Assembly: GCF_963576615.1 (NCBI RefSeq)
Contig: NC_088710.1
Span: forward strand, 806,001-870,000
Source: Watersipora subatra
Taxonomy: Eukaryota > Bryozoa > Gymnolaemata > Cheilostomatida > Watersiporidae
Reading direction: 5' to 3'
DNA: 64,000 nucleotides
The position numbers and the translations under genes were made by a program. Position 1 is the stretch's first letter; every line of letters begins with the position of its first letter. Below, piece after piece: positions 1,436-58,800 of the stretch. Below the pieces are notes generated by a model. It was not told where the DNA came from and did no database searches. It worked only from the letters and a program-made list of their open reading frames with translations.

Positions 1436-1476
1436 TTTCTGTAGTCTAGTGGGCAGGGCGTCCGACTGGTGAACAG
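1436..1476 (+). other. Left half of split tRNA-like sequence
   Basis: Contains a good RNA polymerase III A box (TAGTCTAGTGG) followed by GGGCGTCCGACT, as in tRNA genes and tRNA-derived SINE heads. It stops at GGTGAACAG, where the large TIR element begins. The same nine bases reappear at 11045-11053 and run on into the missing half, which has a B box. The excised sequence would read as a continuous tRNA-like unit. Whether it was a real tRNA gene or a SINE cannot be decided by eye. Confidence 0.7.
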
Positions 1477-1580
1477 GGTCAGATCTAAAAAAGATAACGA
1501 TTTGTGAGTTTCTAGCCGCAATTCCTAACTCGGTTGCGGAATGTACACAGAAAAAATTTTGGCGCTTACAATATAACTGC
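1477..1580 (+). repeat. Left terminal inverted repeat
   Basis: Begins GGTCAGATCT at the edge of the 9-bp target duplication. It is nearly identical for about 60 bp to the reverse complement of 10908-10967, and a TTTTGGCG block near 1557 also has a partner at the other end. Confidence 0.88.
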
Positions 1581-1769
1581 ACGTTGACAAGGTCGTTTCT
1601 ACGGAACTACAAAACTGCTAATGCTAATTGTACTGCGTAGTTGTAGTAGGCTGTTGTTGTAAATGGTTTTTAGTATACTCTTGAATACGACTTGTACATT
1701 GATACTATTATTATTACAAACCATTACGTGTGTACTACATTGCAAAGCAGTTATTTTATATGACTACAG

Positions 1770-2050
1770 CAGGTTTTGGCTTGCCCACAAAACAGTTATA
1801 CTTTTTCTTCTAATTACAATACGAATTAGAACCTGACTTTTCCACAATTATTAGCCTAGCTGCAAAACAGTTATATTTCTATTAAATACATATTGGAACC
1901 TAACTTTTCAGCAATTATTAGCCTAGCTACAAAACAGTTATTTTATTTCAACTTCATGGACTTGAACAGCAAATATTAGCCTAGCTACAAAACAGTTATC
2001 TTATTTCAACTTCATGGACTTGAACAGCAAGTGTTAGCCTGGCTACATAA
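1770..2050. repeat. Subterminal tandem repeat, unit about 60 bp
   Basis: Four to five degenerate units share TTAGCCTAGCTACAAAACAG followed by TTATNTTATTTCAACTTCATG. The last two full units are about 58 bp and nearly identical. A single related block (CTACAAAACAGTTATCTTATT-like) lies at about 5203 inside the protease gene, so the motif belongs to the TIR element. Subterminal repeats of this kind are typical transposase-binding regions; that role here is inference. Confidence 0.75.
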
Positions 2051-2512
2051 AAGTTTTATGACTTCATACAAACTAAAGCTTAGAGTTATGAGAAGGTATT
2101 ATCATTGTATGTTGTATGTAAAAGTTATATATTATTTAGATTTACATAGCATCTCTCAACGAAATATAATATGTACCAAATAGAAAAACCCGTTGAAAAT
2201 GTTGAATAAACCAAGTTGTAAAATTGTATAAAGAAAAAGTACACACTGAGTACAGCTGAGTACACACTGCCTTGATGCATATTCCACTAATGCAAACAAA
2301 CTGACTAGAAATACAGGATGGCTAAACTATATAAATGTATGCAACATAAAAGTTAAACAGTAGTTACTACTGGATCAGGGAATCAAATAACAGGTAATAC
2401 ACTATAATAGTCCGGTGTGAACAAACAATAAAATTTTGTATTAAAACATATTGAAGATATGCCAGTTATCCGCATACATGTGTACATTGGAAAGCATAAC
2501 AGGAAAACATGT
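2051..2512. other. Untranslated part of the TIR element
   Basis: AT-rich sequence downstream of the protease stop codon (minus strand). It may contain the 3' untranslated region and polyadenylation signal of that gene; nothing specific could be assigned. Confidence 0.4.
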
Positions 2513-3046
2513 TTAGCTATGCGTAATGGATTTTTCCATACTATAATATGCTGGAGATGGCCTACTATTGTCATGTTCTGGAGTCAACTTCTTACACCAT
2601 GACTCATAAGCTGCTAGTACAGCTGGACTCAATCTAATAAGTTGCCGACTAATGACCTGATAGTCAGAGCTATTCTTTTCAAGATAATATAAAATGGTCT
2701 CATTTACCATCTGAATACCATCATACATTCCAGATATATGCTCCTGTCGACAATGTTCATAATCTTCGGCTGGAACTACATTAAATACACCATAAATAGC
2801 ATGGTGTGTTTTATAGCGCTTCAGGTACTTGATTTTATAATACTTAAGCTGAGCATCTAGTGAGACAGCAGGAAATTCCACAGGATTTTCTGTAAGCTCC
2901 TTGCCATTCCAGTTGGTAGCTTCATGATTTTCTGTTGTCGCGAAACAGTTCACTGCTCCTTCTCTGGTGGATTCTTCCTTGGCTATTACACAAATAAATA
3001 AATAGAAAACGTTACAGACTACTTCACAAAGTTTTGATCTAATTAA

Positions 3047-3980
3047 CCCTTTGCTTACGAAATCCGTAAAAGCCCGGAATGCGAGCATTGTCTCAGCGTA
3101 CGGATCCCGAAATAATTCGGCCTTCGATAGACCTTTTTTAAAATATATTTATTAAAAAAACAGCATTAAAATTTAAAATAGTAATTTGATCAATTTCCGT
3201 TGGCTTTGTAATACTGTTTTGAGGCTATAAATAATCCCTAATACGCGTGTGCAAGCAATACACTTTGCAAAGATGTGATCTTTTATGGAGATCTATTCAT
3301 CATGAACGCACGCGGTTGTTCAAGCTCTGCTAAAAAAGCTTGTTTAGAGGAAGACATCGACTGGTTTGGAAGTGAAGAAGAGGATATCAGGTCGGAAGAA
3401 TGTGGGGAAGACGATGAAAGTGAAAAATAAGATCAACAGGGTGAATTGGATTGCGAAAATGAGAGTGAAACGGCCGGCGATGAAAAAAGTTATAGTGAAG
3501 TTTAGGCGACATTGTCAGGCCTCCATTTTTCGCTGGTCTTTTGGGTCATGCACTGAGAATTTCGAGTGGCGCTCCCGCAATGCATCGGAGCTCATAAATC
3601 CACATTCAATGCTCTTTGACGACCAATTTCTTTTAAAAATTGTTGAGAACCTATGAATCTGTGCAAGTATTATTTATACAGCATTGTCAATTACCTTTAT
3701 CAATTAGGAAAATACAATTGAAAATGGCGGATAAAAAAAATTAATAGCTTCAACAAATTTAAACTTGCTGGAAAGCATTTGCAAGCTATCTGCATAGAAA
3801 AAATATCAGCTTGTAGAGAAATTTCTCAGCTTTCCTATGCATATTAATTTATGTAACTACCAGAATTGTGATGTAAGTTACTGCAGTTTTTATGCAGTCA
3901 TGTCGAAGGCTCAAATCGCCTTAGTAATTGACTCTGTACGCTGGTATTTTCCCAGCCGTAAGCACGCCGTAGCCAAAGGG
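3047..3980 (+). mobile_element. piggyBac-like relic in a protease-gene intron
   Basis: The element is flanked by TTAA (3043-3046 and 3981-3984). Its ends are CCCTTTGCTTACG and the complement CCCTTTGGCTACG, typical piggyBac-style termini. Inside, an ATG at 3303 opens a short acidic frame (DWFGSEEEDIRSEECGEDDE), like the N-terminus of piggyBac transposases. A further broken piece reads DDQFLLKIVEN, resembling the start of the transposase core. The rest of the transposase is gone, so this is a deleted, non-autonomous copy. It sits in the intron between 2982 and 4169 of the C48 gene. Confidence 0.8.
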
Positions 3981-4780
3981 TTAAGAACATGCATTAGATA
4001 TATATAAAGCAGGTAATATTTGTAGATACCAACACTATACTATTTAAAGATATCAGAATAGTATTCTCATGCTCTAGATTGGTGAACACAGTAAAATAAG
4101 TTTTATGTATTAACATGATACAAATATAAAACTTGTTAGCCTGTATGTGGCTTACATCTTCAACCTACCCGCTTCAATAGAGAGCTTGATATCCGCCAAT
4201 GCTTGACTATCTTCCTATCATAAATAAAGACAAATGGTTAAAAACGAAATTCAATGCAAAAATGTTAAAAAGTTGTTAGTTCAGCTTGAAAAAATTAAAA
4301 CAAATAAGTGAAGAAGTATCTTAACATATATTAACATACAAGATATACAGATGTGCTAAATCTGCTGGGAATAGTTGTTTCACATACCTTTATACTTGCC
4401 AATAATTCTTTACGGTATGTGGAAGGATTTAAAGACATATCACCATCTTTTCTATTTTCTAGCTCAAACGATTCAACATATCGTTGCGCATGCTGAAAAT
4501 ATTAATAACATTATAAAAATAGAGATTCTTAGAATTATTTTTTAATAAGTTTACAAAAAAAATTTGCCAAATATCTAGAAAGTTCAAGATTATTGCATAA
4601 CACCCTACAAGGAATCACACTAATTTTGCTGAAAAAAAATTGTGGTTAACAGTGAAAATTGACAGAATAGGACTAGGTTCCCTAGTAATAGTTAATGTGT
4701 AGATAAATAATCCAACCAGACGTTTCCTACTGATAGTTGTTGAAGTCTTGAGACCTCTACGAATGAGAGTGTCACTCACC

Positions 4781-4836
4781 TTGATAACATACAGCCCACA
4801 GCTTCACCTTGATAACATACAGTCCACAGCTTACAC
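4781..4836 (-). repeat. 28-bp tandem duplication doubling a splice donor
   Basis: Two copies of a 28-bp unit (4781-4808 and 4809-4836) cover the end of the catalytic-Cys exon. Each ends ATCAAG followed by GTGA on the minus strand. Use of the inner donor (exon end 4808) keeps the frame with the next exon; use of the outer donor (exon end 4780) adds 28 nt and shifts it. Confidence 0.88.
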
Positions 4837-5736
4837 AATCTTTCTGTTGCATAGCCGCCATCTCACTATCTGTCACAGCATAATCAGCAAACCTCTCAAC
4901 AGAAACAAGCTTCCTGCAAATATTGTTGCTAACAGTGAGTTTTTGGATTAAACAATTTATGCTAGAATGCAAAGGCAATAACTTGCTTTTTTGTAAGATT
5001 TACCGACAAACCTAGTGAAGTATTTCATGCTCACCTTTTTTCAATGGTCTGTTGTCCTTTGTAAGAAAGAGAGTCCATTAAATGAATTTTCCTAAGTTTC
5101 CTATCTACCAGCTGCAAACAGAATACCATATACAACTTGTACATAAAGCTATGCAAGTTGCATGTTATAGATACACGCAGAGCAAGTATTCCGGTGCCTA
5201 CAAAACAGTTATCTTATTCAAGTTACACGCTATATAAAAGATGTGCTGTTTTAAATTTTCAAAACAATTATAACTATGCACAGCCATGCAACACTAATTG
5301 TTCTCAAAAATAATATCTTGACATAGTCTTTTAGTATAAAAGTGCAGCATAAGAATACTAACCATTAGGGAGTAGTGACTTCGCTCAGAATCATGTCTTG
5401 GTACTATAACAATGTCAGCAGGCTGGTCTAATGCGTTAGTGAGACTATCATGGATTAGTAGAGCATGAAACTGAAAATAAACATTTGATAAAGATAAAAA
5501 AAGTTAACGAATAATACAATATGGCAAGATCTTTTCTGCTTCGTTAAGCGTTGCATAATGAGTTTATAAAATATATATTTTGTGGATGTAACAAAAATTA
5601 TGATAAAATTAATCCCATGATGAACTTTAACCGCTGATTAAATGAAATAGAGATATTTTGGCAGCATCACGTCACATCAACTTTAGATCACAACCTCAGA
5701 AAGACATACCTTGATTGTTGATTTCGACTTAGAAAT

Positions 5737-5925
5737 TGTTACGTTATTGAATCATTGGCTTTGCCGTTTCCGGTTAGTGCATGCGCACGCAGTTCTGTTT
5801 TTATCCTCGAGGATGCGTTACACGTTTTTCTAATGCTCTTGTATTGTATTCCTTATTCACTTATGTACTATTGTTCGTTATTCATAATATACGTTCTACA
5901 GCATTAACTACACACATATTCAACA
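5737..5925 (+). repeat. 5' LTR of gypsy element 1
   Basis: 189 bp beginning TGTTACGTTATTG and ending CACACATATTCAACA. It is identical to 10138-10326. Short for a gypsy LTR, but the termini, target duplication and internal signals agree. Confidence 0.97.
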
Positions 5926-5926
5926 A

Positions 5927-5944
5927 TGGCAACAAGGATGGGAT
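5927..5944 (+). promoter_or_regulatory. tRNA primer-binding site
   Basis: TGGCAACAAGGATGGGAT starts one base after the 5' LTR, where minus-strand DNA synthesis is primed from a tRNA 3' end. The exact tRNA was not assigned. Confidence 0.75.
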
Positions 5945-6101
5945 TCGTAATTATCTCAATGTCCCCTATCGTTTTACTGTATTAGTTACCTGTATTTTTG
6001 TACTAGAACTGTTGCCTTTTTCTTGCGCAAGACACACGTTGTTGTGCATCTTTTTCTTAACAGAAATTCTCTCATAAAGCTCAACAAGCATTAATTTTGC
6101 A

Positions 6102-9100
6102 ATGGCAGCTCAAAATTCCATTGGACGCATGGAACCATTTGATGAGTCAATTGAGTCATTCACATGTTATTTAGAGCGTTTTGATTTCTACACGGAAGCT
6201 AATAGCATTGATGATAGCAAGAAAAAGGCAACTTTTCTGAGCCTCATAGGTCCCAAGTTATATAAACTATTACGTGGTCTCGCAGCACCAGATAGACCAA
6301 CAGCTAAGTCATTCGAAGAATTAACCACGCTGCTAAGTAATCATATCTCACCACCTCCACTCGAAATTGCGGAAACATATCGCTTTCATCAACGAAACCA
6401 GCTACCTGGTGAAAGCATCCATGAGTATGTTGCACAACTCAAGTTACTTGCTGAGCATTGCAATTTTGAAGGTGCGTACCGTGAACGGGTACTACGTGAT
6501 AGACTGGTCTGTGGAATTTACTGCGAAAATGCTCGCCGCAAACTGTTAACTGTAGCAGACTTAAATCTTTCACGTGCCATAGAGATTGCTCGAGGTATGG
6601 AGCAGGCTGGGAAAGATGCCGAAGTCATGACACAACGACAGCCAACAGAATCTAAAGTCTGTCACATCTCTAACATGCATTCGCCTACTACCAGTGGCAA
6701 ACCTTGGCCTTGTCGTTCCTGCGGGAGCACCCTTCATCCAAGAAAGCAATGCCCACACCTTCAAGCTGAATGTTTTAAATGTGGTCGGAAAGGCCATCTT
6801 CAATCTGTTTGTGAACAGAAAACTCCAAGTAAAAGACCTCAACTCCAGAAGCCTCATAGACGAGCACAAAACACACACAGTGTAATGTCAGATGCAATTA
6901 CAGAGGAGCATGAAGATATAGCTCATATAAACACACTGTCTAAGGAGCACAGCCACCCACCAATCATGCTAGATACACTCATCAATGGTATCCCAGTGAA
7001 AATGGAACTTGATACAGGTGCAGGAGTGTCCACAATGCCATATCATATCTACAAAAAGATTAAAGGCTCATCGGAACTCCAACCTACATCTACTACTTTG
7101 AAACCATACGGCGCAACGCAGTCAATTAAGCCGAAAGGAGTCATCTACCCAACTGTGCATTTCAGCAAGCAAGAAAGTAAAGCAAGGATGTTTGTGCTAG
7201 ATAAATCCGAGGGTGAGCAGGTCCCATTGTTTGGAAGGGAATGGTTAAACCACTTTAAATTAAACTGGTCAGAGATCAAGGCTAATCGGGTCGAGGCAAC
7301 GGCACAACTGATGGACACTCTAGTTGCAAAGTACCCGTCCTTATTCAAGCAAACTTTAGGAGAAATGAAAAAGGTTGAAGCAACGCTCCGTACGCGCCCA
7401 AGTGCTATTCCTATTCGGCAAAAGCACCGAGTTGTACCATTCGCATTGCGGGCAAAAGTAGAACAAGAACTTGAATCTCTCCTAAATGAAAATGTTATCT
7501 CTCCAGTAGAACATAGTGAATGGGCAACACCTGTAGTTCCCGTCATAAAACCCAATGGTTCCATTAGGCTGTGTGGAGACTTTAAAGTTACCCTAAATCC
7601 TCAGCTAGTTGTTGACTCATATCCTATGCCATCTATAGATGACCTTCAAGAAAAAATGAGTGGCGGAAAGTTATTCTCCAAATTAGATTTGTCAAAGGCC
7701 TTTGCTCAGATCAAACTAGATGCAGCTTCAAAGCCTTTAGTTACTATCACTACACATAAAGGACTGTTCCAGTACAACCGACTCCCATACGGGGTGGCCT
7801 CAGCGCCTGCCATCCACCAGAGAGCAATGGATGACATACTGGGTAGCCTACCAAATGTCTTATGTTATCAAGACGACATATTTATTACTGGTCAGAACTA
7901 TGAATCACATCTATCTACTTTGCATAGCGTTTTAGACCGTCTACAGAATTATGGGCTAAAGGTCAATAAAGAAAAGTGCTGCCTCCTACAATCATCAATT
8001 ATTTATTTAGGACATCGCATAGATCAACACGGCCTGCACCCTATGGAAAGCAAGGTTAAGGCTATCAAAGAGGCTCCAACACCTACAAATATTGGTGAGC
8101 TTCGATCTTTCATAGGCTTAGTGAACTACTATCAAAAGTTTTTACCAAACTTAGCAACAGTCATGCACCCATTGCATCAACAGTTACGCAAAAATGCTCA
8201 CTGGAACTGGTCTTCACAATGTCAAGAAGCCTTTGTTCAGTTAAAGCAGCTGTTGTCTACAGACTGCGTGTTGACACCATACGATGTTAACTCTCCTCTG
8301 ATACTGGCCTGTGATGCCTCAGCATACGGGGTAGGGGCAGTCTTATCGCACAAACTTTCAAATGGTGAAGAAAAGCCCATAGCATTTGCTTCTCGAACAT
8401 TAAGCCCAAGTGAGCGAAACTATGCCCAAATCGAACGAGAGGCACTATCAATTATCTTTGGGGTAACAAAATTCCACCTCTACTTGTATGGCCGCTCATT
8501 TACCTTGCTCACTGACCATAAGCCATTGGTTACAATTTTAGGCCCAAAAACCGGTGTTCCTCCTATTGCTGCGATGAGAATGCAAAGATGGGCCGCTATT
8601 CTAACAGCGTATACATACGACATAGAATACAAGTCATCACTCGCTCATGCGAATGCTGATGCTATGTCACGGCTTCCGCAGCCATGCAGAAGACTTCATT
8701 GTGAACAAACAAGACTATTTCACATTGAACAATATGCCCAACTACCCGTGACATTTGAGACAGTATCCATAAAAACTCAGGAGGACAAAACATTGAGCAA
8801 TGTCTACAACTCAACCATACATGGTTGGCCTCCATACAGTGCCGCAAACATAGATCCATACTTTAGATGTCGACAAGAGCTCTCGACGCTAAATGGTTGC
8901 TTGATGAGAGGCATACGCCTTGTTATACCCTCTAGTTTGCGAGCCACAATACTCACCGAACTCCACCAAAGTCACTTGGGGATGGTCAAAATGAAAACAA
9001 CAGCACGCAATTATGTATGGTGGCCACAAATTGATGAGGACATTGAAGCCATTGCAAGGTCTTGTCCGCAGTGCAATGCGGTTAAACACAATCCTCCATC

Positions 9101-10085
9101 AGATCCCCACCATTGGGCCCCTGCTGATAGTCCATGGCAGCGAATACATTTGGATTATGCCGGTCCTCTAGACAATACAATGTTCCTAATTATAGTAGAT
9201 GCCTATTCCAAATGGCCGGAAGTTTTTCCCATTCGGACGTCTACTTCAGCAATCACCATAGCAACACTACGAAGAGTCTTTGCTACACATGGGTTGCCCT
9301 ATACAGTGGTCACTGACAATGGACCTCAGTTCACATCAGGGGAGTTCATGCACTTCATGAAGAGCAATGGTATACGACATTTAACAACGGCACCATACCA
9401 CCCACAAAGTAATGGTCAAGCCGAACGATTTGTGCAGACATTCAAACAAGCTTACAAGGCTTCGACAGAAGCAGTAAACACGAAAGTTGATAAGTTTCTC
9501 CTCAAATATCGTACATCGATTAGCATGGTAACAGGCAAGACGCCAGCAGAATTACTGATGGGCAGATGTCTGCGAACAAGACTAGATCTTCTGAAGCCAT
9601 CAATTCAGGCTGCACCACTCACAAACTTCTCGCAGAAGCGTCACTTTCAGGAGGGTGATTTAGTGTGGTACAAGACGTTTCAGAGACCAGCCGTTCAGTG
9701 GCTGCAAGGGTCAGTCATGCATCTTCTGGGAAATTCCATGTATGAGATTTTAGATGCTTCCACCTCAGGTATTGTAAGGCGTCACGTTGATCAGCTACGC
9801 AAAAGAGAAACCTCTCCGTACTTGGCTGACACCTCCAATGAAATGAACAGTGAACGCGAGGTGACAAAACCCAATCACTTGCCGATGGGTCAGGAGACAG
9901 GTGTCAATATTGAAGCGGAGACGTGTCCACACGAGCAGCCCTCTTCAGGCACCGTTGACTCGATTCCATGCACCCCCATGGCACAAGAAATACTACAATC
10001 ACCACAATCAACACCTACGCAAATCAGACGATCAGCGCGTGCGAAAACTGTTCCATCATATTTGTCAGATTATGAACTGTCCTAA
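6102..10085 (+). CDS. Gag-Pol polyprotein of gypsy element 1
   Basis: One uninterrupted frame of 1327 codons, ATG in a GCAATGGCAG context. Domains in order: Gag capsid-like region (1-220); CCHC zinc knuckle CFKCGRKGHLQSVC (about 224); aspartic protease with LDTGAG (about 303); reverse transcriptase with YQDD (about 588); RNase H with ACDASAYGVGAV (about 735); integrase zinc domain H-x-H...C-x2-C (954-990); and the D,D,E core at about 1016, 1070 and 1106 (LDYAGP, VTDNGPQF, GQAERF). The order protease-RT-RNase H-integrase is that of Ty3/gypsy. Gag and Pol are fused in one frame with no shift signal. No envelope gene was seen. All catalytic motifs look intact, so the copy may be active. Confidence 0.97.
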   Translation: MAAQNSIGRMEPFDESIESFTCYLERFDFYTEANSIDDSKKKATFLSLIGPKLYKLLRGLAAPDRPTAKSFEELTTLLSNHISPPPLEIAETYRFHQRNQLPGESIHEYVAQLKLLAEHCNFEGAYRERVLRDRLVCGIYCENARRKLLTVADLNLSRAIEIARGMEQAGKDAEVMTQRQPTESKVCHISNMHSPTTSGKPWPCRSCGSTLHPRKQCPHLQAECFKCGRKGHLQSVCEQKTPSKRPQLQKPHRRAQNTHSVMSDAITEEHEDIAHINTLSKEHSHPPIMLDTLINGIPVKMELDTGAGVSTMPYHIYKKIKGSSELQPTSTTLKPYGATQSIKPKGVIYPTVHFSKQESKARMFVLDKSEGEQVPLFGREWLNHFKLNWSEIKANRVEATAQLMDTLVAKYPSLFKQTLGEMKKVEATLRTRPSAIPIRQKHRVVPFALRAKVEQELESLLNENVISPVEHSEWATPVVPVIKPNGSIRLCGDFKVTLNPQLVVDSYPMPSIDDLQEKMSGGKLFSKLDLSKAFAQIKLDAASKPLVTITTHKGLFQYNRLPYGVASAPAIHQRAMDDILGSLPNVLCYQDDIFITGQNYESHLSTLHSVLDRLQNYGLKVNKEKCCLLQSSIIYLGHRIDQHGLHPMESKVKAIKEAPTPTNIGELRSFIGLVNYYQKFLPNLATVMHPLHQQLRKNAHWNWSSQCQEAFVQLKQLLSTDCVLTPYDVNSPLILACDASAYGVGAVLSHKLSNGEEKPIAFASRTLSPSERNYAQIEREALSIIFGVTKFHLYLYGRSFTLLTDHKPLVTILGPKTGVPPIAAMRMQRWAAILTAYTYDIEYKSSLAHANADAMSRLPQPCRRLHCEQTRLFHIEQYAQLPVTFETVSIKTQEDKTLSNVYNSTIHGWPPYSAANIDPYFRCRQELSTLNGCLMRGIRLVIPSSLRATILTELHQSHLGMVKMKTTARNYVWWPQIDEDIEAIARSCPQCNAVKHNPPSDPHHWAPADSPWQRIHLDYAGPLDNTMFLIIVDAYSKWPEVFPIRTSTSAITIATLRRVFATHGLPYTVVTDNGPQFTSGEFMHFMKSNGIRHLTTAPYHPQSNGQAERFVQTFKQAYKASTEAVNTKVDKFLLKYRTSISMVTGKTPAELLMGRCLRTRLDLLKPSIQAAPLTNFSQKRHFQEGDLVWYKTFQRPAVQWLQGSVMHLLGNSMYEILDASTSGIVRRHVDQLRKRETSPYLADTSNEMNSEREVTKPNHLPMGQETGVNIEAETCPHEQPSSGTVDSIPCTPMAQEILQSPQSTPTQIRRSARAKTVPSYLSDYELS

Positions 10086-10123
10086 AAAGGGGATTACAAT
10101 TAGTGATGACATGTTTCTTCCCT

Positions 10124-10137
10124 AGGGGAAGGAGAGA
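10124..10137 (+). promoter_or_regulatory. Polypurine tract
   Basis: AGGGGAAGGAGAGA lies directly before the 3' LTR and is the expected plus-strand primer for reverse transcription. Confidence 0.85.
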
Positions 10138-10326
10138 TGTTACGTTATTGAATCATTGGCTTTGCCGTTTCCGGTTAGTGCATGCGCACGCAGTTCTGTT
10201 TTTATCCTCGAGGATGCGTTACACGTTTTTCTAATGCTCTTGTATTGTATTCCTTATTCACTTATGTACTATTGTTCGTTATTCATAATATACGTTCTAC
10301 AGCATTAACTACACACATATTCAACA
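10138..10326 (+). repeat. 3' LTR of gypsy element 1
   Basis: Identical to 5737-5925 and followed by the second GAAAT of the target duplication. Confidence 0.97.
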
Positions 10327-10358
10327 GAAATCGCCAGTTTTATGCCAACATTTACCAC

Positions 10359-10867
10359 CTAAATTAAGTAAAATAAAATCTAAAACTTAGTCCAATATTT
10401 CGAAGGAAAATAACAATTATAAATTTAACAGACTGCACTAGAAGACACTGTTGCAACACAAACTGTCATCAAGAACATAGTTGCTTATAAAACATCTGTC
10501 TAGGATCTATTTTTAGCAGCGTAACATTTTATTAAGAGCAGTAAACCTTTTTGGTATTTTTTCAATGTATTATGTTTTTATCACTCTTTTATATATATAC
10601 CTTATATTTCTAGTATCTAGAATAAATCTAGGCATTTCCAGCACCAGCAAAACACCAGTAACCATTCTTTAATGTCAGTAATCATTCTTAATTTTCAAGA
10701 AGACTTTTGACTGCAAGCATGCAGCACGATGCTGGGCCCAGGATGCCGCTTGCGCTAGAAATGCAAAAAAGAAACAAATATTGCCCGCTAGAGCAGGACG
10801 TTTAACACTGACGTCAAAGGTTTCTTTTAAAAGTTTTACAAAACTGTTTTCGTACGTCCATGGTACT
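10359..10867. other. Upstream part of the TIR element, no clear exon
   Basis: On the minus strand this should contain earlier exons or the promoter of the protease gene. A few short open stretches next to AG dinucleotides exist (for example around 10690-10760), but none keeps phase with the exon at 10358 convincingly. The N-terminal part of the C48 fold was not found here. Confidence 0.4.
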
Positions 10868-10967
10868 ACTGATTACATATAATCGCCAAAACAGCTACAC
10901 AGTTTTCAAACCGAGTTAGGAACTACGGGCTAGAAACTCACAAATCGTTATTTTTTTAGATCTGACC
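10868..10967 (-). repeat. Right terminal inverted repeat
   Basis: The reverse complement of 10908-10967 matches the left end of the element in 54 of 60 aligned columns. The outer edge is GATCTGACC followed by GGTGA. Confidence 0.88.
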
Positions 10968-11044
10968 GGTGAGGTCAGATCTAAAAAAGATAACGATCTG
11001 ACCGGTGAGGTCAGATCTAAAAAAGATAACGATCTGATCTGACC
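10968..11044. repeat. Two miniature end-only copies of the TIR element
   Basis: Next to the right TIR lie a 31-bp (10973-11003) and a 36-bp (11009-11044) unit. Each begins GGTCAGATCTAAAAAAGATA and ends CTGACC, so each looks like the left tip of the big element joined directly to the right tip. They are separated from it and from each other by GGTGA (10968-10972, 11004-11008). The last is followed by the full GGTGAACAG. The block is strongly palindromic. Confidence 0.8.
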
Positions 11045-11078
11045 GGTGAACAGCGGAGTCCGAGATCGAATCTTTTTT
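11045..11078 (+). other. Right half of split tRNA-like sequence
   Basis: Starts with the duplicated GGTGAACAG and continues CGGAGTCCGAGATCGAATC, whose GAGATCGAATC fits a polymerase III B box. A T run (TTTTTT) follows. Together with 1436-1476 it would form one tRNA-like unit. Confidence 0.7.
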
Positions 11079-11965: not shown

Positions 11966-12253
11966 TCACTTAGTCGACATCTGGTTAGCCAGCTCCTCCA
12001 GGCGGCGGGCCGTTCGTCTGAGGCTGGATGCCTCCTCTCGGAGGGCGTCTACCGTGGCACGGGGTCGGACGTCTCCCAGTCGACTTTGGATGCTTCCCAC
12101 CGTCGTTAGCGACTTCCTGGGAGCAGGTATGGGCTTCCCTTTCTTGAGCGGACTCCACTTCCGATTCACCCGCTTTTCCTTCGGGGGAGAGGAAAAAAGT
12201 GCCTGTGGTCCTCTCCTCACAGGGGGCTTTATCTTAACCGGACCATGAGGCAT
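11966..12253 (-). CDS. Terminal basic/coiled-coil segment of gypsy element 2
   Basis: A 95-codon open frame overlaps the end of the integrase frame by a few codons in another register. It begins with a basic, proline-rich part (KIKPPVRRGPQALFSSPPKE) and ends with a heptad-like leucine/alanine stretch (REEASSLRRTARRLEELANQ). It could be the tail of Pol after a frameshift or a small separate frame; no known family was recognised. It lies just inside the 3' LTR. Confidence 0.45.
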   Translation of the reverse strand: MPHGPVKIKPPVRRGPQALFSSPPKEKRVNRKWSPLKKGKPIPAPRKSLTTVGSIQSRLGDVRPRATVDALREEASSLRRTARRLEELANQMSTK

Positions 12254-14549
12254 AGGCTTCTCGAAGGCCGGTGGATTGATTAATTCGACCCTCCTTATCC
12301 ATGCGGGGTAACTGGCGCGGTCGACCTCGTAGATCCTGATACCCCCCTCCGCCGTGATTTTTCCGGTTCTCCAGGCCCTTCATTCTCGATTGGTGTTTGG
12401 CTATCGTATCTCTTGAAGTAGAATTTCTTCCACATTTGCAGAAGAACCTCGTGAAGTGTTGTGAGAAATGGATCCGACACCTTCGGGGGGGGGAAAAAGA
12501 CTGATGGCATAAAGGGCAGTGGGCACCGTCTTCCTCACACAGCGTCATTATATTTCCTGTCGTCTCCTCCGAGACCCACTTGGTCGGTATTCGAGAACTC
12601 GGAGAAAAATCCTCCTTTGTCGTGTCGGAGTCTATACCGTCCAACGTCTCATTGGGAGCAGGGTGCAGCTCTAACGGAATTACCAGCTCTGACAGCAAGG
12701 GTAGAGCTCCGGTAATTGGGGAAGCTTCCTTGATGGTTTCTCTAATCACTTCCATGGCTGGAGGGTGTAAGTGTGCGTGCGTGTCGAGCTGGTAACAAAC
12801 AGTGAGAGGGCTTTCTTTACTTTCCAAAATGGTTGCCCTTCGGCCTTGACCCCTTCTGGCCTCTCCTGATTGGACAGTACTTGTGTCGTAATCTGCTAGA
12901 TACGCAGGGGGCTTTCTTATTCGTTGGGGCCGCGTGGTGTTTCCGGTCCCAGTGGTACTAGCCTGGGCTCCTTCATTCCCCGTAGCTCTTGCTTCTTCGG
13001 TCGCCAATTCGCAGCCGGTGTCGAGGCCAGAGTCAGAGTTGTGTTCACTTGGAGAGACCAAAAATTCTTCGCTGGGGAGCCAAGGTGGTTCCAATCTTCC
13101 TGGCGATTGTGGTATTAGTAAATCTATTAATCGACTAGGCAGAAGTGATTCGGAAATAACAGCATCTGGATTACCGTTTTTCTGTGATACTCGTCTCCGG
13201 GAATAACCTCTCATGTTGGGACGTCGGGCAGGTTCGACTTCAGTTGGGGCTCGACCTTGTTGCACAGGGCTAGGGCGACAGAGCCTTAATCTTCCTTCGG
13301 CCTGAGTGGATCGCTGTCCATATCTTTCTACTTCGTACGTATGATTTTTGTGACTCTTTAGTACGCAATAGGGCCTCACATACTTGGCCGCTAATTTCGG
13401 ATTTTCCCCTTTTCTTCGCCGCTTGCTTAGCAACCATACGAGGTCACCCTCATTGAACAGCGGAGACTCCCTCACATCGGTTGATACAATTTCCTTCTGT
13501 CTATCTCGGAGGAGAGTATGAGCTTGTATCAACCGGTCGTGAACAGTCTGGACATACTCGTGTGTGCTCGTAAATGACTCCAACCTATTTCCATGCAGCA
13601 ATTGGTCAGGAAGATGAAGCTCTCGACCCAACATCAAATAATTGGGTGTTTCCTTAGTGGCGGAGTGCGGTAGCCCTCGCAGCGTCCGCATGATCTGTGG
13701 CAATAGTTGATCCCAATCCTCTTGTCCTCTGCCCAGTAAAAGTGCTCGTAGGGAGTCACCCAATACTCGGTTGTTTCGTTCAACCACACCATTTCCTTCG
13801 GGGTGGTACGGAGTGGTCCTAGATTTGTCGACTCCCCACAAGTCACATAGCTCTTGAAGCAAAGAGGACTCGAATTGGCTCCCCTGGTCGGTGTGGATAA
13901 TTTCGGGCAGACCGAAGTAACTGAATACTCTTTCATCCAAGACTTGGGCCACCGTTGGAGCTGTAGCGTCAGGGATAGCCAAGGCATTCGACCACCGAGT
14001 GAAATGGTCAGTGAGTACCAACACCCAACTATTTCCTCGAGGTGTCTGAGGTAGGGGTCCCACTAAATCTACTGCTAGACGCTGCCATGGCCTCCCAGCG
14101 TACAACCGTTGTCGATTTCCGGAGGTCCGGGCCTTTCCCGTCTTAGCCCGCTGGCAAACTTCACAGGAGAGAACTGCCCTCCTGATATCTCCAGTCATGC
14201 CCGGCCAGTACCAATCCAACTGGACGCGCTTCAGGGTCCTTTCCACACCGCAGTGAGTTTGTTCGTGGGCCTTCCACAGGATCTCCTGTCGCAGAGTTTT
14301 GGGGCATACCACCACCACCCTTTCTCGCCCATTCTGAATGAGATGAAGGGTCAATACACCTGATTCGTCAATCTGGAGCTGATGGAACATCCGGGCCAAC
14401 CGCTGCAACTCGGAGCTGCCTACTTGCAATACTGCCTCTTCGACTCTTTTCCGGTTCCTGACGGCCTGGTAAATTATCCCTAGGTCGGTAGCGGGTCTCT
14501 GTTGCAATGCTCGTACTTCATCTAGTGAGGTTTGTACTACTGTCAACAA
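12234..14549 (-). CDS. Integrase region of Pol, gypsy element 2
   Basis: 771 open codons. The zinc-binding HHCC part (HEQTHCGVERTLKR ... CEVCQRAK) comes first, then the integrase core with VDLVGPL, HTDQGSQF and GNGVVERNN supplying the D,D,E residues. A GPY/chromo-like basic region follows (GDLVWLLSKRRRKG). The long C-terminal part is unusual: after a Ser/Pro-rich linker it carries a C2H2-like finger pair (CPLCHQSFSPPRRCRIHFSQH and CKCGR...). Earlier parts of Pol are in other frames upstream, so the frame starts within a broken polyprotein. Confidence 0.88.
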   Translation of the reverse strand: MLTVVQTSLDEVRALQQRPATDLGIIYQAVRNRKRVEEAVLQVGSSELQRLARMFHQLQIDESGVLTLHLIQNGRERVVVVCPKTLRQEILWKAHEQTHCGVERTLKRVQLDWYWPGMTGDIRRAVLSCEVCQRAKTGKARTSGNRQRLYAGRPWQRLAVDLVGPLPQTPRGNSWVLVLTDHFTRWSNALAIPDATAPTVAQVLDERVFSYFGLPEIIHTDQGSQFESSLLQELCDLWGVDKSRTTPYHPEGNGVVERNNRVLGDSLRALLLGRGQEDWDQLLPQIMRTLRGLPHSATKETPNYLMLGRELHLPDQLLHGNRLESFTSTHEYVQTVHDRLIQAHTLLRDRQKEIVSTDVRESPLFNEGDLVWLLSKRRRKGENPKLAAKYVRPYCVLKSHKNHTYEVERYGQRSTQAEGRLRLCRPSPVQQGRAPTEVEPARRPNMRGYSRRRVSQKNGNPDAVISESLLPSRLIDLLIPQSPGRLEPPWLPSEEFLVSPSEHNSDSGLDTGCELATEEARATGNEGAQASTTGTGNTTRPQRIRKPPAYLADYDTSTVQSGEARRGQGRRATILESKESPLTVCYQLDTHAHLHPPAMEVIRETIKEASPITGALPLLSELVIPLELHPAPNETLDGIDSDTTKEDFSPSSRIPTKWVSEETTGNIMTLCEEDGAHCPLCHQSFSPPRRCRIHFSQHFTRFFCKCGRNSTSRDTIAKHQSRMKGLENRKNHGGGGYQDLRGRPRQLPRMDKEGRINQSTGLREAYASWSG

Positions 14550-14882
14550 TTCTGGGACCTTTGGGGCAGCTGGCGGTGAGAAATCTAAACTCGTGGCCCT
14601 AGCGTCTGATCATACTGGAACTAGGCAGGCTGGTGTGGGAGTCGAGAAGCTGGGCCCTGATGTATGTCTGCTGCTGGGTAGTCGAGGCCATTCGTCTTCG
14701 TCCAACTGGTGGGCGCTAGGACTGGGTCCTCCTGTACCTCTTGGTGGCTGTACTGGAACTTGGTCCACTGGTACGGTAGTTTCCCAATTAGTTCCTGGGG
14801 TTACTAGAGAGTCACACACTTGTGACCTAGTTGGCCCCCGATCCCGCTTCTCAATGGCAGCACACTGTCGGCAGTCGATGCA

Positions 14883-15335
14883 CTATTGTCGACTCAACCC
14901 ATCGGCGTTACCGTGCTTAACGCCTTTTCGATGGATGATTCGATACTTGTGCTCGGCTAGGCTCTCCAGCCACCGGGCCACCTGGCAAGAGGGTTCCTTT
15001 CTCCGGTGCAGCCAAACCAAGGAGGCATGATCTGTCCGGATGGTAAACTCTCTGCCATATAGGTATGGCCGGAAATGTCGGACAGCTAGCACGACTGCCA
15101 GCAGCTCTCTTCTCGTCACGCAGTAGTTGCGTTTGGCGGGGGAGAGGGTCTTGCTATAGTAGGCTATAGGTCGCTCCTTGCCTTGCTGGACCTGGGATAA
15201 CACAGCTCCGGTCCCTACGTTACTAGCATCAGTATCGAGTACGTAGGGTAAAGAGGGATCAGGATATGCCATTACTGGAGCGTGCGTCAGTGACCACTTG
15301 AGCTTAAGGAAAGCTTCCTGTTCATCTTCTCCCAC
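14883..15335 (-). pseudogene. RNase H region of Pol, gypsy element 2
   Basis: 150 open codons with VLDTDASNVGTGAVL and FTIRTDHASLVWL, the usual gypsy RNase H motifs, ending NADGLSRQ. It overlaps the RT frame by some 50 bp in another register, so one indel near 15300-15340 separates them. Between 14550 and 14883 the frame towards the integrase is interrupted. Confidence 0.88.
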
Positions 15336-16297
15336 TTCCAGGGGACCCCCTCGCTTGTCAACAGGGTGAGAGGTTTGGCGATCGAGGCGTAGTCAGGTAC
15401 GTATCGGTGGTAGTACCCAGTGGTACCCAAGTACGATCTTAATTGAGTCACATCCTGTGGTGCTGCCCATTCACTTATGGCCTGAATCTTCTCAGGGTCG
15501 GTAGCCACTCCAGTGTCGCTGACTCTGTGGCCCAGGTACTTGACTTGGGTCTGGAACAGACTGCATTTAGAGGGCTTCAATTTTAATCCTGCTTGCCTCA
15601 ATCGTTCCAACACCTCTGCCAGCCTAATTACATGACTAGAGAAGTCTGCCGACATGACGATGATGTCGTCTAGGTATAGCAGCAAAGTTTTCCAGTGTAG
15701 CCCTTGGAGGACGCGTTCCATTAGCCGCTGGAAGGTAGCCGGAGCGGAGGTCAGCCCAAAGGGGAGCACCTTCCATCTCCATAATCCACTGCGTGTGGTG
15801 AATGCTGACCGTTCCTGGGCCTCAGCAGAGAGAGGTACCTGCCAATACCCGCTCATCATATCCAGGGTACTGAAAAACTTGCTGCCGGACAAGGCATCTA
15901 AGCTCTCGTCGATCCGGGGAAGGGGGTAGGCGTCCTGGCAAGTGACACTATTGAGCTTTCTATAGTCCACACATAATCGCCACGCCCCGTCCTTCTTCCT
16001 CACCAAGACCACCGGAGAGCTCCAGGCCCTGTGAGCGGGCTCAATCATGCCTTGTTTCTCAAGAGCCGAAACCTGTCGCTCAATTTCGGCTTCTTTCTCA
16101 TGTCCTACTCGATATGGGGGTTGACGGATGGGTTGTGCCTCTGGGAGAAGGGGGATTTCATGTTGTACCAGGGTGGTACGCCCCACGTCTTCGCTTCCTT
16201 GGCTGAACATATCCGCATAACGAACCAAAAGGTCTTCCATCCTGTGCTCGGTAGGGGACGAGCAATGCGGCGCCGCTTGTTGGAGCAAGTCCTGCAT
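15287..16297 (-). pseudogene. Reverse transcriptase region of Pol, gypsy element 2
   Basis: 336 open codons with the RT signature LLYLDDIIVMS and the preceding LPFGLTSAPATFQRLM block. The N-terminal edge abuts the twelve-G run at 16300-16311, where the protease frame is lost; slippage in this run is the likely cause of the frameshift. Confidence 0.92.
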
Positions 16298-17403
16298 GTG
16301 GGGGGGGGGGGCACGCCTGAAGGAGAAGGGGGATGTTCCTTAGGAGTCTCGACATCCTCCTTTGCTGTCCAGGGAACCCCTATTTCGTCCGGCCCTACTC
16401 CAGTGTATTGTCCCACAATCGTCCCTGCCGTCACGCGGACTGGATGGTCGGTAGGATTCATACAGCGGATGGCCACTCTCCCCTTTTTACCGGGTTGATG
16501 TAGGCTGGCGGCCACCATATAACTGCTTCTTACTCCTTCGATTAGCCCTACTAGCTGATAGGATGAGGACGTGAGACGCCCAGCGACTAAGACCTCGGCT
16601 CGAGGGGGAAGCGTTGTGGCTCGCATTATCTGAACTCCACTTGTCAGAGGTCGACCCTCTCTGTCAGTGCAAGTCAATTTCTGCCCATTTAACACCAACG
16701 TGGGTTGCTGAAAATTCATCTCACAGTGGTGGTCGACCAAGAATGGCATGCCCAGGATGGCATCCTCCTTCAGGGCACACACCACTAGAGATACAGTGAC
16801 TTGGACACTCCTGACTCTGACTGGGAGAGTGATGAGTCCGTGAAATTGCAGCCGTGTACCATCTGCCATCCGCCCATAGTCTTCTCGAACCTCTAATCGG
16901 CTCTTGACATCCTTGGGTAAGCGCTCAAAAACATGCCGTCCCAACAGATTAGACGTGCATCCGGTGTCCACGAGAATCTGGACGGGCTGCCCTCCGATGC
17001 GACCTGGCAAGAAATAGCTGCTATTATGTGGCTTCCACAATTCATCTCCATTAGTTCGTCCGGCTTCGCTCATTCTCTGGGGGCCTTTTTTGGAAGGCCG
17101 AGACGGCTTTGGCCAGACGTATGTTTCTTCCTTGGTTTCTGAGGGTGGGAGACCTGCACACTCAGGTAAGGGCTGATACTGGTTATGCAAGGGGACCGGT
17201 GGCGACCAGGGGGGGAGCCTGTGTCGCCTAGTCCGTCGTGGCCGTTGCCACTGGTGTTGCATTGGTATAGTAGATCCACAGTCAGCACTTCCCCCTACTG
17301 CTGTGGATGGGAACCGTTTCCCGACCTCGTGGCTTGAGGTGGTTGTCTTTGGATAGCTTGAGGGCACCGGCGCTGTACATGCCCTGTCTGGCCGCAGCCC
17401 CAA
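16105..17403 (-). pseudogene. Gag end and aspartic protease region, gypsy element 2
   Basis: 432 open codons. The protease active site is QILVDTGCTSNLLG, followed by a flap-like region and the AILGMPFL motif. The frame overlaps the end of gag (17295-17403) in another register, compatible with programmed frameshifting between gag and pol, and ends in the shift region near the G run. Confidence 0.85.
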
Positions 17404-18191
17404 CAGTTAGGTTCCTTTTTCTCCGCTCCTCGTCGCCCCAATTGGTTTCCTTCTTTTAGTCCATCTGTTAACCCTTTTATAGCCAGTAGGACGTCATTCA
17501 GGGTGGCTGATGGGGGATCCGAGTGGATGGGGGCGACTGTAGCAGGGGTAGTCTCCTCCTTCTCCACTGTCATTACTAGGGGTTGAGCACCAGGCCGAGG
17601 AAGAGTGGGCTGAATTTGCAGGAACTCATTCCCTGACTGCACCGCTTCCTCTAAGCTCTGGGCTCTTACTGCCAAAAGATGGCGTTGGAGGTGCGTGTTT
17701 CCTAGAGTCAGGGAAAACGCATCCATGGCCATGTTAGCTTGGTAGGAGTCCGGAAGGTCAGCATATGCTATCTTCACTAGACGCTCCATCTCCGTTGCGT
17801 GTTCTTGGAGGCTAGTCTTTGGCTCCCTCTTGAGGTGGAGCCTACTCTTAGCCTCTCTCGGGGAGAGCCCGTACTTTGTGCGTAAGGCCGAGAAGATGGA
17901 GGCAGGTGAATCTCCTCGACTGCAACCTCTGGCCCCCTCTTTCAATGTCTCACGCAGGTGGAGGAGAGTGGCCTTCTCATTCCACTCATTAGCTTCTGCA
18001 ACCTCTTCGAACTGGGAGATGAATAGTTCCACATCTTCACTCCCATCGAATTTCGGTGGCTTGAAGCTAGCCTCCCTCCTAGGCATTTGTAAGGCTCTAG
18101 TAATAGCCTCTGTCATCTGACCAATCTGGTCGACCTGTTGTAGCTCTGCCTCAGCCAGATGTCTGGTAGCATTCCGTCGGCTGCTTGGCAT
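17295..18191 (-). CDS. Gag of gypsy element 2
   Basis: 298 codons from ATG at 18191, 43 bp inside the primer-binding site. The middle part has the retrotransposon Gag pattern (FDGSEDVELFISQFEEVAE ... LKEGARG). Near the C-terminus a CCHC knuckle CWGCGQTGHVQRRC is complete. The frame is intact, unlike pol. Confidence 0.9.
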   Translation of the reverse strand: MPSSRRNATRHLAEAELQQVDQIGQMTEAITRALQMPRREASFKPPKFDGSEDVELFISQFEEVAEANEWNEKATLLHLRETLKEGARGCSRGDSPASIFSALRTKYGLSPREAKSRLHLKREPKTSLQEHATEMERLVKIAYADLPDSYQANMAMDAFSLTLGNTHLQRHLLAVRAQSLEEAVQSGNEFLQIQPTLPRPGAQPLVMTVEKEETTPATVAPIHSDPPSATLNDVLLAIKGLTDGLKEGNQLGRRGAEKKEPNCWGCGQTGHVQRRCPQAIQRQPPQATRSGNGSHPQQ

Positions 18192-18233
18192 GGTTACAAA
18201 GGTTGTCTTAGAAGTCCGTGTTACAGCAGTCTA

Positions 18234-26696: not shown

Positions 26697-28070
26697 AGGC
26701 CTTCATAGACCTTACCAAGGCTTTCGACACTGTTGACAGACAATCTCTCTACAAAGTACTTGAGAAAATCGGCTGCCCTCCCAAATTTGTGGCTATTGTG
26801 CAGCTTCTGCATGATGAGATGAACGCATCAGTTTTGGTGGATGACCAACAAACGGATCCTTTTGGAGTAAAAACTGGGGTGAAACAAGGCTGCGTGATTG
26901 CGCCAACGCTGTTTTCTATCTACTTATGTGCTGTACTGCACCTTGTGAAACAAGAACTCTCTGAAGGTATCACATTGAACTACCGAATAGGCGATCTGTT
27001 CAACCTGCAGAGACTTCGGGCTAAAACTCTAACGTCGAAACAAAGTGTTCTTGAGCTCCAATATGCTGATGACAATGCTCTCGTGGCTCATACAGAAGAA
27101 CATCTTCAAGAAGTCATGACAACTTTTGAAAATGCTTACAGGGCTCTTGGACTCAAGCTGAATGCAAAGAAAACTCAAGTATTGTACCAGCCGAAACATG
27201 GAAAAAACAGTCACTCCACGCATTGTTGCCGGAGGCGAACCACTTTGCCCTGTAGATGACTTTGTATACCTAGGTAGTAATCTCTCCTCCAAGGCCGACC
27301 TAGGGAAGGAGATAGAGAGAAGACTGCAAGGAGCTAGCATAGCATACAGCAAACTGAGACAAAGAGTGTTTGAAAATCCAGTCTTGCAAGTCGACACCAA
27401 GCTAAAAGTGTACAAGGCAGTAATTGTCCCCACACTACTGTATGCCTCAGAAATGTGTGCTACTTACAGCACTGACGTCAAGGTTCTGGAGAACTATCAC
27501 ATGAGGAAAATGAGAGAACTACTAATGATCAAATGGTCTGACAAACGCACTAACAATAGTGTGTATCAACAAGCTAAGATGTCCAGCCTCGAAAGTATGA
27601 TCGTTAAGAACAGACTTCGTTGGGCTGGACACTTGGTTAGAATGCCAAACTACAGACTACCAAAACAGATTCTGTATGTCGAACTAGAAAATGGGAAGAG
27701 GTCACAGGGGGGGACAAAGAAAGCGCTATAAAGACTGTCTCAAAGATAGCTTGAAGCGTTGTCATATCAGATGTGAAACCTGGGAATGGAATGCCACGAG
27801 AAGAACTGGATGGAGAACTCTAACTCATAAAGGGGTGAAGATACTTAAAAATGAAAAAATGCGTCACAGAGAAGAGCTCAAAGCAGCACGAAAAGTGCGG
27901 CTTAGCTCACCTGATACTTTGATGAATGATGACTACCAATGTCCACATTGCAATCGTCAATGCAGAGCAATGATCAGACTACGGAGCCATCTTAAAACAC
28001 ACCAAACACATCAATAAAGCAAGCAGACATCTTACTCTAAAGAGAGGGATTGCATAGAGAGAGAGATGGT
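26697..28070 (+). mobile_element. 5'-truncated LINE (non-LTR retrotransposon)
   Basis: The insertion begins in the reverse transcriptase (FIDLTKAFDTVDRQSLYKVL) and contains the catalytic YADDNALV and the later LGLKLNAKKTQVL motif. The C-terminal part follows in a second frame after an A run near 27200 and a third after the G run near 27705. It ends with a C2H2 finger (CPHCNRQCRAMIRLRSHLKTH) and a stop at 28015. Two frameshifts make it inactive. In copy B the corresponding site is occupied instead by about 790 bp (36990-37778). Clade was not assigned. Confidence 0.92.
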
Positions 28071-55800: not shown

Positions 55801-58800
55801 CTAAACCCGATAGCCTCTATATACATAAAGTAAATCTGAGAATGGACGAACTTCGTACGCTAAGGGTTGACTGTATATCTAATAATTATTAAGAAGTGAT
55901 TGCGACTAGACAGTAGTCAGTAGTACCAAGAGATGCAATACCATGTCTCACAACTCACTGGTAATGGTATACAAAGATTCTGGTAAACTGTCGATAGCAA
56001 TAAAATGCTGTATCTTTTGTATGATATTCATCATCAATGATGCACATGATGCAAACTAAATAGCTGAATATGATAGCAAACAGAAAAGCTACCAAGACAG
56101 AAAGGTAAAGGGCAATAAAAGAGGGGGGTAATAATAGGGGAGGGTAATAAGAGGGGAGGGGGCAATCAGAGGGGAGGGGGATAATACGAGGGGAAGGGCA
56201 ATAAGAGGGGGGTGATTATAGGAGAGGGGGCAATTAGAGGGGAGGGGGCAATAAGAGGGGAGGAGGGCAATAAGAGGGGAGGGGGATAATAAGAGGGAAA
56301 GGGGCAATAAGAGGAGGGGGTGATTATAGGAGAGGAGACAATTAAAGGAGAGGGAGGCAATAAGAGGGGAGGTGTGCAATAAAAGGGGAGGTGTGCAATA
56401 AAAGGGGAGGTGTGCAATAAAAGGGGAGGGGGCAATAAGAGGGGAGGGGGCAATAAGAGGGGAGGGGGCAATAAGAGGGGGGGGGCAATAAGAGGGGAGA
56501 GGCAATGAGAGGAGGGGGGCAATGAAGGAGTAGGAAGAGGCTAGACAGCAACTCTAACTTGAGATTAGAGGAGAGAAAGCAATGCTAATATGATATCTTA
56601 CCAAGAAGAACCATGTGGATCCCATGGTCCCAGACAAACCCAACAAAAGTCTGTTTTACAGCTTTGGTTTCTGCAGACCATGTGATTACAACCTCCATCT
56701 TTCTCTATTGTCACTTGACATTTGGGACATTCCTAAAGCAGAGAAAAGTAAGTATGTGTAAAAGAATGACAGGTGTTGCAGGTGACCCAACAACTACTGT
56801 CAGTAAGAGAATGACAGGTGTTGCAGGTGATCCAACAACTACAGTAAAGGAACTAGCCAAGCAGAAAATAGAAAACCTCTGGAAACGTGAGAGGATAAGT
56901 GGTGGCATACAACAATACGGTCAAACCTAGAAAAGAAAAACTCCAGAAACTGCACCATAAGAAGAAAAATCTCTGGAGTGCAACTGGAGAAACCAAAGAT
57001 AGTAAATGGTTACTCCCCTGCTAATCAAGAGTGCTAACCGGGGTATTAGTTCTGAAAACTTTGAACAGCGAACACTGAGAGAAATCATAGAAATACGAAC
57101 CTTTGTGTTTGCTGCTATCCAATTAGAGGTTTCACTGTCGTCATCACATTTTTTCACCCACTTTTTAAGCCAATAACATTTGACAGGATCATGCCACACC
57201 TCTCCACACCGAAAACTAAAAAGATCATCTATTGAATACTGAGGAACAGTACTCATCGGTATAACTATACTAGTACTCATCTGTATAACTATACTAGTAC
57301 TCATCAGAATAACTATACTAGTACTCATCGGTATAACTATGCTAGTACTCATAGGTATAACTATACTAGTACTCATCTGTATAACTATACTAGTACTCAT
57401 CAGTATAACTATACTAGTACTCATCTGTATAACTATACTAGTACTCATCGGTATAACTATACTAGTACTCATCGGTATAACTATACTAGTACTCATCTGT
57501 ATAACTATACTAGTACTCATCGGTATAACTATACTAGTACTCATCGGTATAACTATACTAGTACTCATCGGTATAACTATACTAGTACTCATCGGTATAA
57601 CTATACTAGTACTCATCGGTATAACTATACTAGTACTCATCGGTATAACTATACCAGTACTCATCGGTATAACTATACTAGTACTCATCAGTATAACTAT
57701 ACTAGTACTCATCGGTATAACTATATTAGTACTCATCGGTATAACTATACTAGTAGTCATCGGTATAACTATACTAGTACTCATCGATATAACTATACTC
57801 ATCGGTATAACTATACTAGTACTCATCGGTATAACTATACTAGTACTCATAGGTATAACTATATTAGTACTCATCGGTATAACTATACTAGTACTCATCG
57901 GTATAACTATACTAGTACTCATCGGTATAACTATACTAGTACTCATCGGTATAACTATACTAGTACTCATCGGTATAACTATACTAGTACTCATCGGTAT
58001 AACTATACCAGTACTCATCGGTATAACTATACTAGTACTCATCAGTATAACTATACTAGTACTCATCGGTATAACTATATTAGTACTCATCGGTATAACT
58101 ATACTAGTAGTCATCGGTATAACTATACTAGTACTCATCGATATAACTATACTCATCGGTATAACTATACTAGTACTCATCGGTATAACTATACTAGTAC
58201 TCATAGGTATAACTATATTAGTACTCATCGGTATAACTATACTAGTACTCATCGGTATAACTATACTAGTACTCATCGGTATATCTATACTAGTACTCAA
58301 CGGTATAACTATATTAGTACTCATCGGTATAACTATACTAGTAGTCATCGGTATAACTATACTAGTACTCATCGGTATAACTATATTAGTACTCATCGGT
58401 ATAACTATACTAGTAGTCATCGGTATAACTATACTAGTACTCATCGATATAACTATACTCATACTCATCGGTATAACTATACTAGTACTCATCGGTATAA
58501 CTATACTAGTACTCATAGGTATAACTATATTAGTACTCATCGGTATAACTATACTAGTACTCATCGGTATAACTATACTAGTACTCATCGGTATATCTAT
58601 ACTAGTACTCAACGGTATAACTATATTAGTACTCATCGGTATAACTATACTAGTAGTCATCGGTATAACTATACTAGTACTCATCGGTATATCTATACTA
58701 GTACTCAACGGTATAACTATATTAGTACTCATCGGTATAACTATACTAGTACTCATCGGTATAACTATACTAGTACTCATCAATATAACTATACTAGTAC

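Follow-up and report, generated by a model that had tools for sequence, protein, structure and literature searches.

A probable Mutator-like transposon copy with a Ulp1-like protease gene and no transposase in the genome of the bryozoan Watersipora subatra

What kind of transposon is bounded by inverted ends and a 9-bp duplication, carries a Ulp1-like protease gene in place of a transposase, and appears to sit in a tRNA-like sequence? The question is raised by a 9.6-kb interval near the beginning of a 64,000-nucleotide stretch of the Watersipora subatra genome (the window; C3:806001-870000 of a 783.72-Mb assembly, to which all whole-genome counts given here refer). A prediction made from the letters of the window had proposed either an undescribed family or a deleted member of one. 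We conclude, with a probability of about 0.94, that the interval is a non-autonomous copy of a family of Mutator-like elements (MULEs), in which the transposase would have been lost through a founder deletion and the protease gene kept.

The evidence that bears most directly on this conclusion comes from a longer relative. At C1:26189789-26204694 lies a 14.9-kb copy that shares its tips with the window copy and has its own exact 9-bp duplication (CAACACCGA); 6,701 letters of this copy were sampled. On one strand it carries, in this order, exons of a MULE/ZSWIM-type transposase, a SWIM-finger exon, and Ulp1 exons. Two successive exons match the ZSWIM1-3_RNaseH-like model (PF21056; E values of 2.1e-5 over profile positions 21-66 and 1.5e-4 over 73-124), two successive exons match the MULE model weakly (PF10551; 0.027 over positions 3-27 and 0.014 over 32-87), and the SWIM match (PF04434; 5.7e-6) lies above its cut-off. 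The motifs DATYKT and MTDCSQAE, found in successive exons, are what we take to be candidate DDE-triad motifs of the transposase that goes with these tips. The case for a transposase rests on the two successive exons in profile order, the SWIM finger, and the 9-bp duplication, which together point to a MULE-type enzyme. A genome search with the first PF21056 exon gave 86 matches, three of them at 94% identity or more and the remainder at 59% or less; two of the three close copies lie within pairs of the same tips, where the distance to the tip on the 5' side is 3.74 and 3.72 kb, and the third lies at 7.6 kb from a tip that has no partner among the tip places listed (100 of 251). The original prediction had named the lack of a transposase as a gap in its case: the window copy does encode none, but its 14.9-kb relative contains exons that match one.

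The short copies are tied to the full-length copy by a single junction, at which the terminal 328 bp of the C1:26.19-Mb copy join the sequence that precedes its Ulp1 exons. The matched parts are separated by four bases in 15 of the 18 comparable copies, by five in L042, and by nine in L049, while in L050 the junction is interrupted by an insertion. Because the junction is common to them, a single deletion of about 7.6 kb is very likely the origin of the short class, and this supports the option, already offered, of a deleted member of a family.

The family is abundant. Searched as an exact pattern, the 31-bp tip has 251 matches in the genome and a reversed-pattern control has none; of the 251, the 100 that were listed lie on C1 to C4. 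When 111 bp of the left end served as the query and 40 of 568 first-look candidates were scored, 41 matches emerged; they start at the tip or at most 5 bases outside it, except that in the window and its duplicate the match also takes in the flank. We examined 22 copies, namely that of the window, those in 20 stretches of 10 kb (L031-L050), and the C1:26.19-Mb copy. Both ends were found in 17 of them; the other five (L035, L041, L042, L044, and L049) lack a complete right end within the 10-kb stretch. The 9-bp duplication is exact in ten of the 17 two-ended copies, nine of these being independent since the window copy and L031 represent one insertion, carries one mismatch in three (L033, L037, and L045), and is recognisable with extra bases in two (L046 and L050). 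Thirteen target duplications that were compared vary in sequence, with an A or T at the centre as their sole common feature. The check proposed along with the prediction, run here on part of the family, thus came out in its favour: other copies of the terminal inverted repeat (TIR) bound a common element and carry 9-bp duplications. Among the 100 tip places listed, at least 17 opposite-tip pairs, counted by eye, lie 553-667 bp apart (C1:28178239-28178838 is an example), which suggests a short derivative, a probable class of about 600 bp resembling miniature inverted-repeat transposable elements; further opposite-tip pairs, also seen by eye, lie 5-15 kb apart.

Several observations weigh against the interpretation given above. 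The PF21056 and PF10551 matches fall individually below the curated cut-off, and about 6.6 kb of the 14.9-kb copy was read, so that its transposase gene is known in pieces. Three of the 21 short copies (L035, L041, and L044) lie outside the junction comparison; stretches L031-L050 are mostly the top-scoring left-end matches and not a random draw; and two of the 17 two-ended copies, L038 and L043, have no duplication. The spread of the deletion descendants would have depended on a transposase supplied in trans.

The anatomy of the window copy is summarized in Table 1.

Table 1. Features of the transposon copy in the window, in order of position
Feature	Position	Strand	Remarks
Target site duplication, left copy	1468..1476		9 bp, GGTGAACAG
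Left TIR	1477..1535	+	
Subterminal minisatellite, 58/67-bp	1808..2055		strongly expanded in certain other copies
Ulp1-like gene, final coding exon	2513..2983	-	156 amino acids; stop 2513-2515; no Pfam match of its own
Degenerate piggyBac element	3047..3980	+	TTAA on both sides (3043..3984); in last intron of Ulp1-like gene
Ulp1-like gene, exon 5	4170..4214	-	
Ulp1-like gene, exon 4	4388..4492	-	HAQRYVESF...
Ulp1-like gene, exon 3	4808..4912	-	presumed catalytic Cys (DCVSCGLYV)
Ulp1-like gene, exon 2	5034..5111	-	presumed catalytic Asp (LMDSL)
Ulp1-like gene, exon 1	5363..5470	-	presumed catalytic His (RSHYSLM)
Ulp1-like gene, exon 0, remainder	5710..5736	-	split by the LTR element
Ty3/gypsy-like long terminal repeat (LTR) retrotransposon	5737..10326	+	189-bp LTRs, 100% identical; 5-bp duplication GAAAT (5732-5736, 10327-10331)
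Ulp1-like gene, exon 0, first part	10332..10358	-	VVNVGIKLA...
Founder-deletion junction	10643..10646		4 bases between two matched parts
Right TIR	10909..10967	-	
Two additional tandem miniature units	10968..11044		31 and 36 bp; left tip fused to right tip
Target site duplication, right copy	11045..11053		9 bp, GGTGAACAG

The inverted ends predicted at 1477 and 10967 proved to be TIRs of 59-60 bp with 93% identity across 60 columns. The predicted duplication is likewise present on both sides, its nine letters occurring on the plus strand of the window at 1468 and 11045 and nowhere else, but the right copy does not abut the TIR that ends at 10967 because the two extra tip units intervene. Each of these units is preceded by GGTGA, the beginning of the target duplication. 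Three such units follow the right TIR in the segmental duplicate L031 (at about 5054-5190 of that stretch), and the spacers in both copies read GGTGA or GGCGA, which equal or approximate the first letters of the duplication. We infer that these tip miniatures arose by incomplete or abortive repair after excision and were multiplied afterwards. At the other end, the minisatellite has a counterpart in the L035 copy (C4:298678-329449), where a subterminal 67-bp repeat continues to the end of the 10-kb stretch; the exact opposite tips of that copy are 30.8 kb apart, and the array may fill much of the span.

The interior of the window copy contains, on the minus strand, a Ulp1/C48 protease gene of at least seven coding exons, and the prediction of such a gene between the ends is borne out by a match of the public protein P0006 to Peptidase_C48 (PF02902; E value of 2.6e-5, 24.6 bits against a cut-off of 20.7). 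The match spans positions 82-192 of the 217 in the profile, the N-terminal part of which is unmatched. The His-Asp-Gln/Cys motifs of Ulp1/C48 are present as SHYSL, MDSL, QQKD, and SCG, which presumably hold the His, Asp, Gln, and Cys catalytic positions. P0006 shows no differences within exons when compared with six exons of the window (the listed exon identities of 88-100% take in intron letters at the exon edges), and its residues 1-35 correspond to the antisense strand of part of the nested LTR element (6091-5987, 97%); on these alignments, this public gene model, which fits the locus, is a chimera of the Ulp1-like gene and LTR-element sequence. The protein matches of the Ulp1-like gene (five and three) were all from W. 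subatra, sequence searches of PDB gave no matches, and the AlphaFold model of P0006 was not used, its mean predicted local distance difference test score being 36.

Two elements nested in the copy add to the anatomy originally described. The piggyBac remnant, having TTAA flanks and inverted tips of its own within the last intron, is a passenger; about 0.8 kb of its middle is gone near 3485 in the window but is kept in other copies, together with remnants of DDE_Tnp_1_7. The LTR retrotransposon is a young insertion that makes up 4.6 kb of the 9.6-kb interval, has a single open frame of 1335 codons with reverse transcriptase, RNase H, and integrase domains, and entered within exon 0 of the Ulp1-like gene. 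Its absence from the segmental duplicate L031 shows that it entered the window copy later than the duplication.

The TIRs, a feature of TIR-MULEs, the 9-bp duplication (exact in ten, near-exact in five, and absent in two copies), and the transposase exons of the full-length copy place the family among the MULEs, whose target duplications are of about 9 bp (8 to 11 bp) and whose DDE transposases frequently bear a zinc finger, SWIM being one example. The original prediction could name no family that combined its features; the kind is in fact already known, Ulp1-bearing Mutator elements being described, in the portion of the source available, from hydra, lancelet, Arabidopsis, maize, rice, and melon (PMC2836005). 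Those of hydra and lancelet share with ours a Mutator type and a Ulp1/C48 domain in an animal; by their description there, what differs here is the bryozoan host, the tip sequence, and the presence of Ulp1 on abundant copies without a transposase. Among plants, a Ulp1 domain is also reported, in extracts of two sources, for KAONASHI (KI-MULE), melon, rice, and grapevine MULEs (PMC2528002, PMC13317346), and the VANC group of Arabidopsis bears Ulp1 (PMC13317346). The 9-nt duplications of the W. subatra family are shared with grapevine MULEs and are given as typical of plant MULEs (PMC2528002). KI-MULEs, so far as they are described there, have no TIRs and a reversed ULP domain, whereas the W. 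subatra family has TIRs and a Ulp1 gene in the direction of the transposase. Among the 8 of 225 papers listed by a literature search, none concerned a bryozoan element by title. The family is new, consisting of Mutator-like elements with Ulp1, while the combination itself has been reported elsewhere.

Features of this kind are also scattered among other superfamilies: KDZ elements carry Ulp1, and Merlin elements make duplications of 8-9 bp. It is nevertheless very improbable that the copy is a KDZ/Zisupton, Ginger, or Merlin element, as the transposase with the same tips matches MULE/ZSWIM and SWIM models over the part read, though no genome search aimed at KDZ or Merlin models was made. Some Ginger1 transposases do carry Ulp1, but in the account available to us Ginger duplications are of 4-5 bp, those of Ginger1 being 4-bp CCGG/CCGT, and the Ginger1 transposase resembles a Gypsy integrase (PMC2836005); no CCGG/CCGT duplication was seen here. 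The nested passenger might suggest that the outer element is a piggyBac, given that remnant pieces from three copies match DDE_Tnp_1_7 (PF13843) at 2.5e-5, above the cut-off, and at 3.4e-4 and 6.9e-4, below it. That identity has next to no probability: the remnant sits within its own TTAA-flanked ends in an intron, in the four copies displayed its reading is broken up among several frames, and the outer element is flanked by 9-bp duplications of varied sequence and not by TTAA. As a nested element, it was rejected as the source of the outer transposase. A highly improbable alternative is an undescribed family that targets tRNA genes or tRNA-derived repeats in the manner of Dada, to which the original prediction compared the element for its insertion into small RNA genes (PMC3706591). 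With the element removed, the window site does read as a weak tRNA-like unit, for which ARAGORN at a very relaxed setting reports a tRNA-Thr candidate with an intron of just 3 bases. At the default setting of ARAGORN, however, all 14 joined insertion sites scanned, that of the window included, are without a tRNA call, Rfam and ARAGORN scans of the window gave no matches, and the relaxed setting also yields candidates at six of the 13 other sites (without an intron in L039, with introns of 18-56 bases in the rest). Among 30 TIR loci, the tRNA-like flank occurs at the window and at C3:760069 (L002) and at none of the other 28. The L002 flank was duplicated together with the element (the duplicate copy being L031), so that the two represent one insertion, copied segmentally. 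The tRNA-likeness of the window site thus appears somewhat above that of most other sites, yet among the loci read it is no trait of the family; the central A or T is the only bias among the 13 duplications. By the partial account available, Dada elements make 6-7 bp duplications at a fixed target, and their U6/U1 groups are without TIRs (PMC3706591), whereas in the W. subatra family no target preference was seen and insertion is not fixed on multicopy genes for small RNAs. That the window copy sits in a tRNA-like site looks coincidental.

A different question is why the deleted copies retain the protease. It seems unlikely that they do so because it aids the family in trans, by deSUMOylation or against silencing. 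Exon 4 shows a pN (nonsynonymous) of 0.011 against a pS (synonymous) of 0.030, exons 0 and 3 are free of stops in every copy, and the Ulp1-bearing VANC group of Arabidopsis is described, in the excerpt available, as inducing demethylation of related elements (PMC13317346). Against this, the overall pN/pS across 18 copies is 0.76 (a simple pair average that ignores copy relatedness and leaves frameshifts outside the count), and 10 in-frame stops occur in eight of the 18, so that the evidence of constraint is weak. Moreover, the youngest group, L036, L040, L046, and L047, whose members diverge by 0.1-0.7% over 1.2 kb and have different flanks, reads SFG for SCG, with Phe at the presumed catalytic Cys, and L040 has a stop besides. 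The duplications are exact in three of these copies (L036, L040, and L047) and include an extra base in L046, which indicates that copies can still be moved without encoding the Cys form in cis; the four may derive from one mutant and so be one event seen four times. We consider it quite doubtful that the protease-bearing deleted copies form a helper class, countering SUMO-dependent silencing or freeing the transposase, with the Cys-to-Phe subgroup as a later cheater.

Other features lie outside this family or beside its copies. A FLYWCH finger (PF04500, 1.4e-7) and MULE-like pieces seen by eye adjoin the truncated right end of the L042 copy (5779-9991 of that stretch), and a 101-amino-acid piece from there has 64 genome matches, 15 at 90% or more. 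They were set aside as a partner transposase, the right tip of L042 being truncated at their border; none of six relatives of that piece (at least 90%) on C1-C4 lies within 15 kb of the listed tips (100 of 251). Perhaps they represent a second MULE family. In the window itself, two arrays (616-1142 and 42930-43702) consist of the same 32-bp tandem repeat, and a duplication also takes in the stretch that precedes them (L002 1-1172 against 41983-43169, 96%). A second LTR-type element on the minus strand (12234-18230) has its integrase (12234-14609) and reverse transcriptase (15287-16339) in separate frames, and at 26699-27731 overlapping frames hold a fragment of a reverse transcriptase that looks non-LTR-like by eye. 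At 57248-59424, a 24-bp minisatellite of 91 copies accounts for long open frames on both strands.

Returning to the Mutator-like reading, we propose the following history. Full-length members of 13-15 kb would encode a SWIM-finger transposase of MULE type, followed downstream on the same strand by the Ulp1/C48-like gene. The founder deletion would have taken out the transposase, leaving the tips and the protease gene, and its descendants would have inserted with 9-bp duplications at sites without an evident sequence target. The protease might perhaps remove SUMO from the transposase or from silencing factors. The window copy has the piggyBac remnant in common with other copies, shows an internal deletion and tip miniatures at its right end, and was segmentally duplicated, the insertion of the LTR retrotransposon being the last event.

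The window copy shows how one chance insertion can mimic target specificity, and the recent moves of the Cys-to-Phe copies amount to a natural test of the importance of the protease. With this family, the known range of Ulp1-bearing Mutator elements comes to include a bryozoan, and a single chromosome-scale genome offers both a full-length form and numerous deletion copies.

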